Below, piece after piece: positions 30,196 to 57,266 of a stretch of 64,000 bases of DNA. Source of the stretch: Singulisphaera sp. (GTDB lineage Bacteria; Planctomycetota; Planctomycetia; Isosphaerales; Isosphaeraceae); assembly GCA_027451445.1 (NCBI GenBank), contig DAIDJG010000093.1, positions 1 through 64,000 on the forward strand, written 5' to 3'. The number at the start of each line of letters is the position of its first letter. The first letter of the stretch is position 1. The translations under genes and the position numbers were made by a program. A model generated the notes under the pieces. The model was given only the letters and a program-made list of their open reading frames with translations, was not told the DNA's origin and did not search any database.

Positions 30196-30268
30196 GGGCG
30201 ATTAGCTCAGTTGGTAGAGCGCCTGCTTTACACGCAGGATGTCGGCGGTTCGAGTCCGTCATCGCCCA
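30196..30268 (+). tRNA. tRNA-Val(UAC); attachment site of the integrated element
   Basis: GGGCGAT/ATCGCCC acceptor stem, anticodon arm CCTGC-TTTACAC-GCAGG (anticodon TAC), GGTTCGAGTCC T-loop. Confidence 0.95.
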
Positions 30269-30416
30269 TTCGCGTAAGTCCGATAATGGCAGCACTTTGA
30301 AGTTCAATCCGAAGGTCGGATAAGAATCCCGGAAGGCCCAATAATTGTAGTACCGGTACTACCGGTGCGAACTCGTTGGGTAAATTCTCTTGTGGAGTCA
30401 CAAGGGAGTTTCCGAG

Positions 30417-31763
30417 ATGCCAAGACGTTCCGCGACCCGCCAGAAACCCGGCCCGAAACCCGCCAAGCAGCCGCCCTCCTATCGGCATTACAAGCCCAAG
30501 GATCTCGGCGTTGTGCGCATCAGGGGGCGCGACCGCTACCTCGGGAAGTTCGGCTCGCCTGAATCCTGGGAGAAGTATTACCGGTTGCTCGCGGAGGACG
30601 CCGCGCATGGCGGCGTGAATCCGGCGACCGCAACGAACGCGGCGACGTCAGGCCTGACGGTGAAAGAGGTGACGCTCAGGTACGACGACTTCGCCACCGG
30701 GTACTACGTCAAGAACGGAAAGCCCACGACCGAGGCGGGGCTGATTCGGCTCTCCCTGAAGGCCCTGAACAGGATCTACGGCAACACGCTCGCGAGCGAG
30801 TTCGGACCCAAGGCGCTCAAGACCCTCCGGCAGGCACACATCGACGCGGGCCTGGCCCGTACCGAGGTGAACCGACGCACTGGCCACATCGTCCGTTGCT
30901 TCAAATGGGCAACCGAGGAGGAACTTGTCCCGTCGTCGGTCTATCACGGACTCTCGGCCGTCAGCACTCTCCGCAGGGGTCACTCAACGGTACGGGAGAG
31001 CCCTCCAGTCTTGCCGGTCGCCGACGATCTGGTGGACGCCATCGAGCCGCACGTCTCCCCCCAGGTGTGGGCGATGATCCAGATCCAACGGCGCACCGGT
31101 GCGCGTCCCGGCGAGGTGTGCCAGATGCGGACCTGCGACCTGGACGTGACCGGCGAAGTGTGGCTCTATCGGCCTGAGTCTCACAAGACGCAGCACAAGG
31201 GCAAGGGCCGCGTGATTCCCATCGGCCCCCGCGCACAAGCCGTTCTTCGACCGTGGCTGAAGACCGAGCTTCAGGCCTACATCTTCTCGCCGAAGGAGTC
31301 GGAGCAGGACAGGGCGGTGCGATGTCGAGAAGCTCGCAAGACCAGGGTCCAGCCATCCCAGCGGCACCGAAAAAAGAAGGGCCGTGATCGGAAACTCGGC
31401 GACCGCTGGAGCGTCATGGCGTACTACCACGCCATCGTTCGTGCCTGCGACCGCGTGTTCCCGCACCCCGAGGTAGCCGCGTTCAAGGAAAAGGCCAAGG
31501 GCCTAAAGCGCGCGGAGCGCCGGCAGCTTCGAGAGGAACTCAAATCCTGGAAGGCGCAGAACGCCAAGGAGTTCAAGGCCTGGCGCAAGGAACACCGCTG
31601 GCACCCGAACCAGCTTCGGCACAACGCCGCAACTGCGATCCGGCGCGAGGAGGGACTGGACGCGGCGCGTGCTGTCCTCGGCCACTCGGACGCTGCGACC
31701 ACAACGATCTACGCAGAGCGCGACCTGAATCGCGCGGTCGCGGTGGCGCAGAAACTCGGTTGA
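30417..31763 (+). CDS. int: Tyrosine recombinase/integrase
   Basis: RRTGARPGEVCQMRTCDL...; HPNQLRHNAATAIRREEGLDAARAVLGHSDAATTTIYAE (R..HxLR..LGH..Y); abuts the tRNA. Confidence 0.95.
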   Translation: MPRRSATRQKPGPKPAKQPPSYRHYKPKDLGVVRIRGRDRYLGKFGSPESWEKYYRLLAEDAAHGGVNPATATNAATSGLTVKEVTLRYDDFATGYYVKNGKPTTEAGLIRLSLKALNRIYGNTLASEFGPKALKTLRQAHIDAGLARTEVNRRTGHIVRCFKWATEEELVPSSVYHGLSAVSTLRRGHSTVRESPPVLPVADDLVDAIEPHVSPQVWAMIQIQRRTGARPGEVCQMRTCDLDVTGEVWLYRPESHKTQHKGKGRVIPIGPRAQAVLRPWLKTELQAYIFSPKESEQDRAVRCREARKTRVQPSQRHRKKKGRDRKLGDRWSVMAYYHAIVRACDRVFPHPEVAAFKEKAKGLKRAERRQLREELKSWKAQNAKEFKAWRKEHRWHPNQLRHNAATAIRREEGLDAARAVLGHSDAATTTIYAERDLNRAVAVAQKLG

Positions 31764-38547: not shown

Positions 38548-39038
38548 GCCCAGTGATTGACGGTTGGCATCGCGCGGCTTCGGAAGTAGACGGAAGCCGC
38601 GCGGAAGGGCATAACTCGAATCGTCGGAAGGTGTTGACGGGTTGGCATCTCGTCAAGCCGTCCGCGCGTCCCTCGCCCTATCTGCCCAAGAGGTGCGAGC
38701 GCCTAACTCGAATCCGAGGCGATCAAGGGGCCGTGCTGATCCGAGGGGGTTGGCGCGGTCCATTTGCTTTGGAAGCGACGACCGAGAGGGCCTGGGGTCA
38801 CGAAGACGAAGTGAACCCGCCAGGCAACATCTACTACGTACAAGGCGAGGCAGCGACGGAGGATCGCCCACTATCCCGTTGTGCGTGCCAGAAAAAAGGT
38901 TTGACTTAATGGAAACCAGAGACGATAATCTCTGTCGTAGCACTCACGGGCGGGTGCCGTCAAAGCGGCTAATAACTTGCCATTGACCCGTCCCGAACAG
39001 GGCGCGGCTATGCCGAGCTTTGTGCGACCGAATTCATG

Positions 39039-39076: not shown

Positions 39077-39688
39077 TTATAGCAAGTGCCGATCTGCTAT
39101 TCGATCGTACCACCTTCGATCATCCTCGTCTCCTACGGCCCCACACACCATATCGGCGAGCTGAAGCATCTCGTCTGATTTAGAATTTCGGAACATTACC
39201 TTCCCGACCAACGGTAGGCCCTTGCGTAGGCCGCCGAATTGCTGCTTCAAGATGGCAAGATACTCGGAGTCCGAGTTGTCGTCTACGACTACTTGCTCCT
39301 TGAAATGGCGTCCACGCGTTTCCTCGGCCTGGCAATACACCGGGCGAAGAAGGGCCGCGACTTCGACTGCGCACCCCCAGTGTATCGCGGATCCTGTGGC
39401 ACAGCACCATGATTTATCCGTTTTATCTACAACCCCGATTGCGAATCGGAATTCTTGACTCATTGCTGCCGCGAAAAACGCATCACGATAACTCGATTGA
39501 CATGTATTTGCATACCTAAATTCATACGTGGATTTCAGAGTCAACTGGGGCCGAATCGTCCTGATCTTCTTCCGAAAACCATCGGCGTCATCGAGTGTAG
39601 GGACCCAAACCGCCGCGAGCCGAAAATAGGGCTTGCCCCCACTCGCTACGCTACCAGTATCTCCAGATTCATCTATAAACGTCGGCAT
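39077..39688 (-). CDS. DUF3800 domain protein
   Basis: MPTFIDESGDTGS N-terminus; DEMLQLADMVCGAVGDED C-terminal motif. Confidence 0.85.
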   Translation of the reverse strand: MPTFIDESGDTGSVASGGKPYFRLAAVWVPTLDDADGFRKKIRTIRPQLTLKSTYEFRYANTCQSSYRDAFFAAAMSQEFRFAIGVVDKTDKSWCCATGSAIHWGCAVEVAALLRPVYCQAEETRGRHFKEQVVVDDNSDSEYLAILKQQFGGLRKGLPLVGKVMFRNSKSDEMLQLADMVCGAVGDEDDRRWYDRIADRHLL

Positions 39689-39760
39689 ACTAACACCAGT
39701 AATTACAAGCGACCCGCGAGGGTGCCGGGCCTCTGATTTGGAAGCGCGGGCTAACAAGAT

Positions 39761-40309
39761 CTAAGGTGACTGGTTGCCCGTCGACTCGGCCTGGACATTA
39801 TCGGAGGTTGACAGAGGAGACGGTATTGTCGCACCGATCTCGCTGGCTCGGCTTGCGAAAGCCACCCACCACTCCTCGGGGACCCTTCCTTCCGCGTGCA
39901 GGCGAGAGCAAACCGCGAGTGGGTTTACGAGTAGGACATGCCCGATTTCACGGTTACCCTCCCGCTTAACGCGGATGAAACCAAGGTCCGCCAGCTTCCC
40001 AACGTGCTCCCGCCAAGTCCGAAGAGCGCGAGTGCCCGTGTAGCCAGCTGCATACGCGCACTGCTCCTCATCGACTATCGACACGATCCCCTCGTCGTGG
40101 CTCCGACACCACAAGTCGAGGTATACCGAGGTCGGATCGCCTTTTTCGGTAAGACGTCGGATTAGATGCAGGACGAGCGGAAGCAACCTTGGGACGGTGG
40201 TGAAGCCAAGGTTCGTTGATCGTTGCCAGATCAGCGACCCAGAACCGGGCCAAAGCGTCTCTCTGAGTCGCTCGCGACGTCGAGCGGGAACGGCCTTGTC
40301 AACTGGCAT
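39761..40309 (-). CDS. RepA-like/wHTH protein (possible replication initiator)
   Basis: TVPRLLPLVLHLIRRLTEKGDPTSVYLDLWCRSHDEGIVSI...LRTWREHVGKLADLGFIRVKR. Confidence 0.6.
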   Translation of the reverse strand: MPVDKAVPARRRERLRETLWPGSGSLIWQRSTNLGFTTVPRLLPLVLHLIRRLTEKGDPTSVYLDLWCRSHDEGIVSIVDEEQCAYAAGYTGTRALRTWREHVGKLADLGFIRVKREGNREIGHVLLVNPLAVCSRLHAEGRVPEEWWVAFASRASEIGATIPSPLSTSDNVQAESTGNQSP

Positions 40310-40490
40310 GCATGCACTCCAAATCAATGCGGCGCTCTAGCGTCAGTGAATGGTAATCTTGCAAGAGTTGTTGACGCAAGAGTGGAGTGCCGCTTTATTC
40401 GGGTTATCCGCTACTACGACTTGACTTCGGGCTTTCCAGAGTGTGACATGGGCGTCCGATGCCTGACGCTGCCGTGACGCTTCAATACGT

Positions 40491-40635: not shown

Positions 40636-41246
40636 TCAAGCGCCAGCCGAAAAGCACGACGCAAGGCGCAGACTCAGGTTCCAGAAACCCACTGAATCAA
40701 CTTGAACCATAGAGCCGGGCTGAAGACTGAGGGAGGCGACAGCCACCGACCAATCTGGCAAGCCACCAATGCCTCGGGGCTTGCGTCAACCCGACGAGGA
40801 AAAGTTTGTGAGTCCACGACGAAGATTGCAGATTGTAAGCCTGACTGGACTGCGGAACGATCTCGTGCTGGGAGTTCTGGGATGCGGACATCACGCGAGG
40901 CATTTCAGGTCTGTCCGCCCACATTCATGCCCGCATGAATGCATCGTGGGTAGACTTAGAATGAGGCGCCGGGCGGCCGCGCGGGTAGGCCCGAGAAACG
41001 TTGATTTGCCGCCGAGCACCGAACAAGGGGCCGTGCTGATCCGAGAGGGTTGGTGCGGCCCCACTGGTTTCGACTTCCATCGTTCCGATGATGGACAACG
41101 CGCGGTCGACGAAAAAAGTTGCCTAAAACCCTGGCGTGTGATAGGGTGACCAGCAATGGCCCCACGTTCACGGACGGTGCATGGGTTCAGCGAATGGCAG
41201 TCGTTGCCACTGTCTCGCGGTCCCGCCGTACAAATCAAAGCGCCAA

Positions 41247-42035
41247 ATGGATCAAGAGCCGACACCGACAGCCGATCCACTCGTCACAGGAGCACCCCCA
41301 GCTGAGACGCCTCAACAGGTCTCACCTGAAGCGCTCTCGCTCGCGGAACTCGCTTTCAAGGCCCACGACTACTACTTTCGTGAACGCGAAGCGCTGATCC
41401 TCGGCGAGGGTGAGGCGGTCAAGAGCTTCGATACGCACCTGATCACGCTATCGACGGCCGCACTTGGACTATCGGTCCTTTTTATCGAAAAACTGGCGAG
41501 TCATCCTGAGCCATCGACGTTGACATGGCTGGTTATTGCATGGTTCCTATTTGGAATTACGCTCTGTCTCATGTTGATTTCTTTCCTTATGAGCCAGTCA
41601 TCTTGGAGTAGGCAACGCGAGATTCTTGATCACAATCACAAAATAAGGCAAGAGCACCTACCAGAAGGAACGCCACTGCCAAAGTCCTCTTTCGGGTTCC
41701 TGCCGGAGGATTCTCCCTGGACGATTTCGTTTAGGAAATTAGAAGCGAAACATGAAAACGCGTGGGGCGAATTGACGCGTCAAATCAACCGTTGGGCTCT
41801 CGGTTTCTTTATGACCGGCGTGTTCTCGCTCTTGCTATTCTGTGCCCTCAACATCGGAGACCGCATGACGAACAGAGAAACTCGCGCCACAACTCCAGGT
41901 GAGCAACGCGGCGCATCCGCAACCCCTTCGGCAGTCCCACCACCGTTGCCTACTTCGGGGCCTGGGCAAGCAAGCCAATCGTCCTCAACGCCAAACAGCG
42001 CGACGACAGGAGGTTCCGGTAATTCCTCGAAGTAG
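41247..42035 (+). CDS. Membrane protein with ~3 TM helices and a low-complexity tail
   Basis: LITLSTAALGLSVLFI, WLVIAWFLFGITLCLMLISFLM, WALGFFMTGVFSLLLFCALNI. Confidence 0.7.
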   Translation: MDQEPTPTADPLVTGAPPAETPQQVSPEALSLAELAFKAHDYYFREREALILGEGEAVKSFDTHLITLSTAALGLSVLFIEKLASHPEPSTLTWLVIAWFLFGITLCLMLISFLMSQSSWSRQREILDHNHKIRQEHLPEGTPLPKSSFGFLPEDSPWTISFRKLEAKHENAWGELTRQINRWALGFFMTGVFSLLLFCALNIGDRMTNRETRATTPGEQRGASATPSAVPPPLPTSGPGQASQSSSTPNSATTGGSGNSSK

Positions 42036-42088
42036 ACTCGACGCCCTCGCTGAATCTTCGGTGTTTCGCAGTAACAAAGGAGACCATC

Positions 42089-42292
42089 GTGGAGAATAAA
42101 CGGTTGGGCTCAGACGGGCTCGATCAAAAAGGCTCATCAGCCCCCGGATCAGCGGTTCCAGCGCCCACGCTGCCGATTCAGATCCATACGGTGCAAGTGG
42201 TCGATTTCCAGCATGGCTCCACCCCTGCGCCGGCCGCTGTTCCGCCTCCATTGCCCATCATTACTCCGTCAGGTCAAGGCAAGAAGGACTGA
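42089..42292 (+). CDS. Small Pro-rich protein (GTG start)
   Basis: Short ORF 53 bp after the membrane protein gene with GGAG upstream. Confidence 0.45.
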   Translation: MENKRLGSDGLDQKGSSAPGSAVPAPTLPIQIHTVQVVDFQHGSTPAPAAVPPPLPIITPSGQGKKD

Positions 42293-42552
42293 TCAACTTA
42301 CCACCTAGAATTGGGTGATAACCGAACTCACTGACCGCGATAGCGCGAACGCCGATCGAGACGGCAGGGGTGGTCCTAAATGGGACTGTCTCTGCCGTTC
42401 TATGTTTGTGGGCGTTGACGTCCTGGAATCCGCTTTTTCCGGCAACCCTATTCCCAGGATAGATCCGTAGTGGTAATCTCATGCCATCCAACTCAATTCT
42501 CCCGACAAAACGTATACCGCGAGGACGAGTTGGGTTACGAGGAGAATGCTCA

Positions 42553-43620
42553 ATGTTTGGGTATAAACATTATGTCCCAATCCTGAAGGGCAAGAAGGGC
42601 GATTTCTGGTCGCTCCAACACGCCAAATCGTTAACCGGGGACGTGGTGACTCCGCTTATCGAGGTTGTCCCGCCAACGGCAAAGTCGACTGAAGCCAAAC
42701 ATTTGACACAGACGGCCCAAATGTTGGCGGGCTCGCGTCAGCACCGCCGATCTTTCGTCGACCTGAAATGGAGAGATAACGCCCCATTTGTGTCTCCGGG
42801 GTCTCATGTGGTCGACCACTTCTTCGCCGAAACGCGATCGCGTAGCACTCCAGCAATCCCAGTGACGTCCTTGCTCAGAAGCCCCGCCTTCCAGACCGCA
42901 GTTCAGCGCGTCGTTGCCATAGATCAGCGTGGAATGGCTCTACGACTCGAACTGGATCGGATGGAACTCGGCGCCAGTGAGTTAAGTGCGATTGATAGGC
43001 TGTTGACGTTTATGCATATCGTTCCGACGGATGCCGACTTGATTCTTGATTTCGGGTCGGTCTTCACCACGCCGTCAGCGTTGCTTGCTCAGAACGCCAG
43101 ATCGGCGATGCTATTGCTGCCACACCTAACTGCATGGCGCACTCTCACTGTCGCCGCTGGCTCCTTTCCGGAATCCGTAACGGTCCTACCACAGGCGACG
43201 TGGTCAAAGCTACCGCGTAAAGAGTGGACAGCGTGGCTGTCAGTCGTTACCGGCGGCACGCGTCCGCCGCGACTTCCAACCTACAGTGATTACGCGATTG
43301 GTCATCCAAACCTGCCGTTCACCGGACAGGCCAACATCTCAGTTAATCTGCGATACTCGTTCGACGACCAATTCTTCGTCTGGCGCGGTTTTGCGACAAC
43401 GTCTCACCCGCTCGGCCACGGTCAGATCATCGACATCTGCAAAGATCTCGTGGCCCGGTCGGAATTTGCCGGCCCTAACTTCAGCCAGGGTGATCAGGAG
43501 ATTCAAGCGAGAGCAACCACTCCAGGTTCGACTGGGGGTCCGCAGCAGTGGCGGCAGTGGGCAACGAACCATTACCTCGAACTCGTCGCTTCGCAGCTTG
43601 CCACTGTCCCCTCGCCTTAA
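42553..43620 (+). CDS. Beta-protein family (phage T4 Beta-like)
   Basis: YVPILKGKKGDFWSLQ...VTPLIEVVPP; SFVDLKW; WRQWATNHYLELVASQL C-terminus. Confidence 0.75.
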   Translation: MFGYKHYVPILKGKKGDFWSLQHAKSLTGDVVTPLIEVVPPTAKSTEAKHLTQTAQMLAGSRQHRRSFVDLKWRDNAPFVSPGSHVVDHFFAETRSRSTPAIPVTSLLRSPAFQTAVQRVVAIDQRGMALRLELDRMELGASELSAIDRLLTFMHIVPTDADLILDFGSVFTTPSALLAQNARSAMLLLPHLTAWRTLTVAAGSFPESVTVLPQATWSKLPRKEWTAWLSVVTGGTRPPRLPTYSDYAIGHPNLPFTGQANISVNLRYSFDDQFFVWRGFATTSHPLGHGQIIDICKDLVARSEFAGPNFSQGDQEIQARATTPGSTGGPQQWRQWATNHYLELVASQLATVPSP

Positions 43621-44155
43621 GGGCCTCGCGGACGATCTTACGTAACTGATCAGCCGAGGTATTGGAGACGAGGAGAGCCCACAAGGTGCGCCGCGGCTGA
43701 TTTCGGTTTCCCTCAGCGCACCCGATCTTTCGCAGGGCGCTCAGCGTTTCGTCCTTCCAAAGAAGCTGAACCACAGACTCGGGGCGGACGTTTCGATTGC
43801 GTTTCGGACTTCGGACAACGCGCAACTCCACCTTTGAATCAACTTGAGTGGCGACAAGGATTCCCCATCTGCTCGGGATCAGCGAGCGCGACTTCGACAG
43901 GTGGCGGTTTCCAACCACCAGCGTTACCGCGTCAAAGCATTGCTCGTAGACATCTCGCTGATGCGGGAGACGATCCAGCGTGTCTCGCTCGCTCTTGATC
44001 TCGTAGCCCGCAATCGAACCGTTGATAACGGCGAGGTCTGCCCGCGCTTCACCTTCGCGCAGTCCGAGCTCTTCTACGATGAGGGTGTCCGGTTCTCCAG
44101 CATGCTCAAGCTGGAGCCTCTCTCGTAGAGCCAGACGTATGTCGTAATCACGCAT
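43481..44155 (-). CDS. sce7726-like protein with PD-(D/E)XK-type nuclease motif
   Basis: MRDYDIRLALRERLQ N-terminus; EGEARADLAVINGSIAGYEIKSERDTLDRL (D...ExK). Confidence 0.75.
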   Translation of the reverse strand: MRDYDIRLALRERLQLEHAGEPDTLIVEELGLREGEARADLAVINGSIAGYEIKSERDTLDRLPHQRDVYEQCFDAVTLVVGNRHLSKSRSLIPSRWGILVATQVDSKVELRVVRSPKRNRNVRPESVVQLLWKDETLSALRKIGCAEGNRNQPRRTLWALLVSNTSADQLRKIVREALKARGQWQAAKRRVRGNGSLPTAATAADPQSNLEWLLSLESPDHPG

Positions 44156-44358
44156 CTCTCGTCCCACCGCACCGGGCTGGCAATCAGGATCATCTGAACA
44201 CGCTAATAGCATATTCAGATAGACTACGGACGAGGGCGGCGCACTCAGCGTTGATCGCGCGGAGTAAAAAGTCAAGGGCTTGCGGACCGTAACTCTTGGG
44301 AGAGGCCGCATTGTCAACGATTGACGAAAAACTGCAACCCCGAATTCAGTATACCTAA

Positions 44359-44426
44359 GAGCCTATCTCAGTAGGGCGAAAAACGACTTGTTTTCAAGAC
44401 CGGAACCCGCCTACTGAGATAGGCTC
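44359..44426. repeat. 68-bp MITE-like element with 17-bp perfect terminal inverted repeats and TAA target duplication
   Basis: GAGCCTATCTCAGTAGG ... CCTACTGAGATAGGCTC flanked by TAA at 44356-44358 and 44427-44429. Confidence 0.65.
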
Positions 44427-44549
44427 TAAGTCCATCGTCGTCCGAGAGGCGAATAAGCAGTCGAGATGCACACCAGGGGTCGACGATCGCACCCACGCCG
44501 GATAGATTCGAGGGACGGCGAAAGTTGCCGCACCTGGAGGGCCTGGGCC

Positions 44550-44888
44550 ATGCGCCTACCGCGATTCCGCATCCGAACGCTAATGATTGCTGTGGGTGTG
44601 ATCGCAACGCTCTGTGCTGCTTGGGCAGCGATCGAGACGCGATGTGAGCGAAGCCGGTGGGCCACGGTGCGGGTGATCAATCACCGCTCCGCCCCGTTGT
44701 CTCGGGTGCGCGTAGTCTTTCCCGAGGGGCAACGGGAACTCCCTCGCTTACCACCGGGGCAAGAGGCGGATTTCCCTGTCCGCATCAAGGACGAAGCCAG
44801 GATTAGCGTCGAAATTGATGGGCACTGTTACGCCGAGTGGTTTTCTGTTCGGGGCGGTAGTAAGCCGGCGCTCACGGTGAGCGAGTGA
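44550..44888 (+). CDS. Small membrane-anchored protein
   Basis: MRLPRFRIRTLMIAVGVIATLCAAWAAIETR leader of a type common in planctomycetes. Confidence 0.65.
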   Translation: MRLPRFRIRTLMIAVGVIATLCAAWAAIETRCERSRWATVRVINHRSAPLSRVRVVFPEGQRELPRLPPGQEADFPVRIKDEARISVEIDGHCYAEWFSVRGGSKPALTVSE

Positions 44889-57056: not shown

Positions 57057-57100
57057 GCTTTACACGCAGGATGTCACTGGTTCGAGTCCGGTATCGCCCA
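57057..57100 (+). pseudogene. tRNA-Val 3'-half (distal attachment site)
   Basis: GCTTTACACGCAGGATGTCACTGGTTCGAGTCCGGTATCGCCCA. Confidence 0.92.
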
Positions 57101-57266
57101 CTTCACTCCCGCCCAATCTCACGATTGACCCAGACAGCGCCTGATCGGCTCTGAAGCCATCTCAACGACGCGGCCTTTTGACCGCTACTGGCATCGACGC
57201 GCTGAGCGCCGCCTTCCGAGATTGGAAAATGCGAACCACCCCCCGTGCGCTCGGCGAGGGGGCTTG

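Follow-up and report, generated by a model that had tools for sequence, protein, structure and literature searches.

A convergent, overlapping Beta-sce7726 gene pair as a candidate two-gene defense module on an integrated element of Singulisphaera sp.

The window analyzed here, a stretch of 64,000 nucleotides from Singulisphaera sp., contains four open reading frames (ORFs) between positions 41247 and 44155, which encode a membrane protein, a small proline-rich protein, a Beta-like protein, and an sce7726-like putative nuclease. A preliminary description had read them as a single, undescribed, defense-like locus. This raises the questions of which of these genes belong together and what function they might serve. 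All four ORFs are present where that description had placed them; its grouping of the four into one locus was not supported.

Composition of the locus

The Beta gene (42553..43620, plus strand) encodes a protein of 355 amino acids that matches the Beta family PF14350 over residues 7 to 345 (E = 5e-61; 207.5 bits against a gathering cutoff of 27) as well as the PADLOC model PD-Lambda-2_C (E = 4.4e-45); by sequence, it belongs to the Beta family and is homologous to component C of PD-lambda-2. Its start at 42553 matches the conserved N terminus of the family (HYVPILK). AlphaFold2 predicted a TIM barrel for this protein (pLDDT 95.5, pTM 0.94), and the leading PDB structure matches of the model were mostly TIM barrels, none of them with an E value below 0.001, so that Beta is best regarded as a divergent TIM barrel. 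Residues D70, R131, D166, R222, and D246 are invariant or near-invariant and are located at or near strand ends of the predicted fold. PDB sequence searches with the Beta and sce7726 profiles yielded nothing useful.

The convergent sce7726 gene (43481..44155, minus strand) encodes a protein of 224 amino acids that matches NF033832 (E = 6.7e-52; 176.1 bits against an NCBIfam curated cutoff of 70) and the PADLOC model cll (E = 6.5e-31), and its start at 44155 (MRDYDIR) fits the N terminus of the family. The D...ExK motif pointed out in the preliminary description (RADLAVINGSIAGYEIKS) is a PD-(D/E)XK motif with catalytic residues that are invariant in 70 homologues, in the alignment of which E29, D40, E52, K54, and Q66 do not vary. 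Structure prediction, which had been suggested as a check on the putative nuclease assignment, gave a predicted fold that agrees with it: the AlphaFold2 model (pLDDT 88.1) has a helix-strand-strand-strand-helix-strand core of the PD-(D/E)XK type. The top PDB match of the model, and the sole one with an E value below 0.001, is 3dnx (E = 1.3e-5), which belongs to a PD-(D/E)XK family of the DNA-repair type; weaker matches include AF1548, YaeQ, XPF, and RecE. sce7726 is thus a predicted member of the PD-(D/E)XK superfamily. Its C-terminal tail (residues 179 to 224) has low model confidence and is probably mostly disordered. Since PADLOC names both Beta and sce7726, neither protein is new to defense catalogues, and the label "undescribed" is not supported for the proteins themselves and is thus only partly right.

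Two known systems contain homologues of these proteins. One is gop-beta-cII of satellite P4 (presumably the system named Rst_gop_beta_cll in PADLOC), with the gene order gop> beta> <cII and with a cII product that RefSeq calls "sce7726 family protein." Defense by this system has been reported against both lambda and P1, and its gop gene is toxic when beta is missing (Rousset et al. 2022, PMC9122126). The other, PD-lambda-2, combines a HigB-like gene with one for an Xre-peptidase and with a third that is related to a P4 antitoxin (Vassallo et al. 2022, PMC9519451); the third, Beta-type gene is needed for defense against lambda-vir and is dispensable for toxin neutralization (PMC9519451). As in P4, the Beta gene of the window converges with a cII homologue, and both are carried on a mobile element; the two proteins are 18% (Beta) and 25% (cII) identical to those of P4. 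In contrast to P4, a phmmer search found no gop match upstream of the window Beta, the gene that does lie upstream is 517 bp away behind a hairpin, the two convergent genes overlap instead of being separated by 27 bp that include a terminator, and the window Beta falls into a distant branch. Likewise, the window shares with PD-lambda-2 the homologue of component C and differs from it in that no HigB or ImmA/Xre-peptidase match was found near the window Beta. sce7726 is not a described component of PD-lambda-2; the loci combining HigB, ImmA, and Beta that were found via sce7726 carry it, whereas locus L114 lacks it.

The two upstream ORFs appear to be a different matter. The membrane gene (41247..42035, plus strand) encodes 262 amino acids with about three transmembrane segments and a proline-rich tail, and the small ORF that follows (42089..42292, plus strand; 67 amino acids), preceded by AAAGGAG, shares the motif AVPPPLP with this tail. 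Between the small ORF and Beta, in the 517 bp that separate the end of the membrane gene from Beta, lies a terminator-like hairpin of 18 pairs (42360..42399, plus strand) that is followed by a T-rich stretch and is far more stable than its shuffled versions (z = −4.57; 0 of 200 shuffles as stable). Neither ORF has a detectable homologue at about 80 other Beta-sce7726 loci, including those of the nearest relatives, L018 and L021, so that the expected co-occurrence of the transmembrane gene with the pair was not found at any of them. Apart from the genome of the window itself, 5 of 249 genomes of the class encode weak homologues of the membrane protein, and the three homologue loci examined showed no Beta or sce7726 nearby. 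Because of the hairpin, the absence from pair loci, and the homologues located away from Beta, we assign the membrane gene and the proline-rich ORF to a transcription unit of their own; a four-gene operon was rejected on account of the hairpin and of the absence of the upstream genes at every other locus. At L140 (4658-5533), a membrane protein homologue likewise has a small proline-rich ORF next to it, which points to a two-gene unit distinct from the pair. An assignment of the membrane protein to PF24838 (8xMP) was rejected because its score (20.2 bits) is below the gathering cutoff of 30, and a profile search gave no family match for the proline-rich ORF. We regard the membrane gene as real and the proline-rich ORF as plausible, possibly as the partner of the membrane gene, which itself most likely lies outside the Beta-sce7726 pair. 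No sigma-70 consensus promoter was found within 40800-44700, a consensus that is uninformative for this organism.

These observations bear on the idea that the membrane protein is the effector in Gop's place, restrained by Beta and helped by sce7726, and permeabilizes the membrane upon infection. In its favor, the sequence of P4 Gop looks like that of a membrane protein and includes a coiled coil; proteins of similar build, with one span plus a coiled coil, are encoded ahead of ImmA and Beta in L116 and ahead of Beta in L029; and the membrane gene of the window is co-directional with Beta. However, recognized partners as a rule abut Beta, whereas 517 bp and a terminator-like hairpin intervene here, and the absence of the gene from L018, L021, and all other pair loci, together with the three examined homologues away from Beta, makes this idea highly unlikely. 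No sequence link between the membrane protein and Gop was detected, so homology with Gop was dismissed and the functional analogy alone remains. Only Beta and sce7726, the homologues of P4 beta and cII, form the system, and we are highly confident of the identity of these parts and of the two-gene unit.

Dual coding in the antisense overlap

Beta and sce7726 overlap tail to tail by 140 bp (43481..43620, on both strands), a segment that encodes Beta residues 310 to 355, including the invariant G328 and W333, and sce7726 residues 179 to 224. Such an antisense overlap is present in 82 of 83 Beta-sce7726 loci (a set in which a few loci are duplicated between collections) from at least 16 named phyla, with lengths ranging from 23 to 143 bp; the exception is P4 with its gap. 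The overlap length equals 2 modulo 3 in 81 of the 83 loci, which corresponds to register 123:132, and the codon register is thus kept across loci. Convergent overlaps are a minority of prokaryotic gene overlaps, and this register accounts for 32% of the convergent ones (PMC2174442).

Selection on the overlap was assessed from the divergence at fourfold sites in 14 independent pairs. For Beta, divergence was 58% far from the overlap, 54% near it, and 29% inside it, and for sce7726 the corresponding values were 57%, 51%, and 12%. The difference between near and inside was significant for Beta (P = 2.5e-5) and had the same direction in 11 of 12 pairs. As divergence falls inside the overlap in both genes, both frames are constrained by purifying selection, and the 140-bp overlap is true dual coding; a conserved DNA or RNA signal within it could add to the low fourfold divergence. 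Mutual control of genes by convergent overlapping transcription has a precedent in the excludon (PMC7154746), and by analogy we infer a regulatory role for the overlap. For P4, the primary study in J Virol in 1990 reportedly found that a mutation in the cII terminator disturbs beta expression, a lead to which we give no weight here.

Distribution, partners, and mobile context

Of 297 genomes in the phylum, Beta exceeds the cutoff in five, and sce7726 exceeds it in exactly these five; the two genes are adjacent and convergent in each of them. When 85,462 species genomes were scanned for sce7726, 80 loci were recovered, and a convergent and overlapping Beta was found in all 77 that had room on the contig, in a sample that leans toward the window's side of the family. 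The statement in the preliminary description that the two families recur as neighbors is supported. In 279 genomes of another phylum, sce7726 was present at 4 of 7 Beta loci and missing at the other 3, and 2 of 6 sce7726 loci had no Beta. Obligate coupling of the two genes, which holds near the window in the tree and in its phylum, is therefore broken there. sce7726-like genes without a detected Beta were also observed in Myxococcus phage Mx4 and in large Lactobacillus, Bacillus, and Staphylococcus phages (H36, H42-H68). On the Acinetobacter plasmid pNDM-AP_882 (L110), Beta is truncated next to an IS30 element, and in E. coli PEC240 it is interrupted by IS1; sce7726 is kept in both.

A census of the region upstream of Beta in 75 non-redundant loci showed no recognized partner in 37 (37 of the 69 assessable loci, with 6 cut by contig ends and left out) and ImmA-, PIN-, HigB-, DUF6932-, or Gop-type partners in 30. 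Two further loci have other abutting genes, namely an FRG-like gene recognized by eye in L047 and a gene for a membrane plus coiled-coil protein in L029. The partner sets ahead of the pair appear exchangeable: HigB with an Xre/ImmA peptidase, ImmA with PIN, DUF6932, FRG-like, and Gop-like. In a tree of 68 Beta proteins, the window, L018, and L021 form a group (support, 99) whose members are all partnerless, and the label "no partner" changes 6 times on the tree compared with 22 times in shuffles. The tree is a quick one with some long branches, so its deep joins, including that of P4, are unsure. At L116 (4135-6038), genes for a one-span plus coiled-coil protein, an ImmA-type peptidase, and Beta lie in a row without sce7726, and this Beta groups with P4 Beta, both on long branches.

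The pair is carried by a mobile element in the window, as the preliminary description had surmised in speaking of an integrated island. The element spans 27 kb (30196-57105): tRNA-Val (30196-30268) is followed by a gene for a tyrosine integrase (30390-31763), and the other end, near 57057-57105, carries the 3' half of the tRNA again in diverged form (alignment score, 69, against a best score of 31 elsewhere). G+C content is about 55% over 39 to 44 kb and about 63% to the left of the element. Partnerless pairs also occur in a Rac-type prophage of E. coli (in 93 of 5,426 genomes, with both genes covered each time), in Gordonia phage Powerball, and in Rhodococcus plasmids. The pairs annotated in these prophages and plasmids and in Gordonia phages resemble that of the window in being convergent and in the same register, with overlaps of 32 to 89 bp, compared with 140 bp in the window; identities to the window are 23 to 29% for Beta and about 42 to 47% for sce7726 in the phage records.

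The neighbors of 20 partnerless pairs included Pycsar, Septu-type PtuA, and CapP families, whereas control regions contained mostly methyltransferases. Counts of PADLOC families were 92 near the pairs and 16 in the controls, which overstates the enrichment because many models match one protein; when each protein is counted once, the pairs exceed the controls only modestly, and the control set is small. Known defense genes, whose enrichment the preliminary description had proposed to look for, are thus present near partnerless pairs, and the size of the effect is limited. Three further features were observed around the pair in the window. A DUF3800 gene (PF12686) lies at 39077-40327, with a possible minus-strand regulator before it, and four Bradyrhizobium/Afipia loci of the partnerless pair (L045, L046, L049, and L077, which are near-identical copies) also have a DUF3800 gene next to it, compared with 0 of 20 control regions. 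Direct copies of 54 nt (83%) lie on either side of the DUF3800 segment, at 38720-38773 and 41020-41073. Just behind the sce7726 start, at 44355-44430, is an inverted repeat with 21-nt arms (95%) separated by 34 nt that looks like a small mobile element or what is left of one.

The occurrence on prophages, satellites, plasmids, and integrative elements, and the fact that several partner genes belong to toxin-antitoxin families, would suit a classical toxin-antitoxin or maintenance pair of a mobile element that has no direct anti-phage role. We consider this unlikely, since a strict pair would forbid both sce7726 beside a broken Beta and Beta without sce7726, and since related systems are proven anti-phage systems. 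On the same ground, that P4 gop-beta-cII and PD-lambda-2 protect against phages (PMC9122126, PMC9519451), the anti-phage or inter-element role proposed in the preliminary description can be called probable for the pair.

Proposed mechanism and implications

The reading that we prefer, and to which we give an even chance, is that Beta and sce7726 form a stand-alone two-gene module that is carried as cargo of the mobile element at tRNA-Val, with Beta as control subunit and sce7726 as nuclease effector. Beta is common to systems with different effectors, restraining the toxin in P4 and being needed for defense in PD-lambda-2, and a control or sensing subunit fits both; since the window offers no other partner, the nuclease is the only candidate effector there. 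On this reading, the pair alone would defend the cell, with Beta controlling sce7726. The TIM barrel, with its invariant polar residues at strand ends, would detect infection or restrain the effector, and the sce7726 nuclease, once released or activated, would cut phage or host nucleic acid. The dual-coding overlap would couple the two genes, such that transcribing either gene would hold back the other and the two would be passed on as one. As a specific mechanism, this combination of control subunit and nuclease is tentative. A point against it is that the toxin restrained by Beta in P4 is Gop and not cII. The persistence of sce7726 beside a broken Beta in L110 and PEC240 suggests that free sce7726 is not strongly toxic, so Beta may activate sce7726 rather than merely restrain it.

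Alternatively, sce7726 might act directly on incoming DNA as a restriction-like or DNA-processing nuclease, with Beta not a restraint but an enzyme that marks or processes nucleic acid or a nucleotide signal. The match to 3dnx, a DNA-repair-type protein, the mostly enzymatic nature of TIM barrels together with the conserved D70, R131, D166, R222, and D246 near the strand ends, and the sce7726-like genes without detected Beta in several phages all agree with such activities. Still, toxin neutralization by P4 Beta points to a binding role and the Beta model has no close enzyme match, and we assign this alternative a low probability.

A wider proposal, which goes further than the preferred reading of the window and which we consider somewhat less likely than not, is that Beta and sce7726 together are a widespread immune core in which the overlap serves as a regulatory device and to which HigB, PIN, DUF6932, FRG-like, and Gop-like effectors have been added. 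The components of such a core are already known; what is new is the partnerless pair as a unit, its conserved overlap, and the dual-coding selection. We found no description of the partnerless pair as a unit or of its conserved overlap in the open-access literature (subscription papers were mostly missing), where gop-beta-cII is scarcely named and sce7726 is mentioned in passing, never in a title or abstract. Because partnerless pairs are present in Rac-type prophages, the overlap and its role are testable in E. coli.

One conserved gene pair links two separately named anti-phage systems, and, if the proposal is true, gop-beta-cII and PD-lambda-2 would represent the same modular system equipped with different partners. 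Beta gains a predicted fold, the TIM barrel, and cII a predicted role, that of a PD-(D/E)XK nuclease. The pair also provides a rare case of an antisense overlap that is kept across phyla and selected on both strands.
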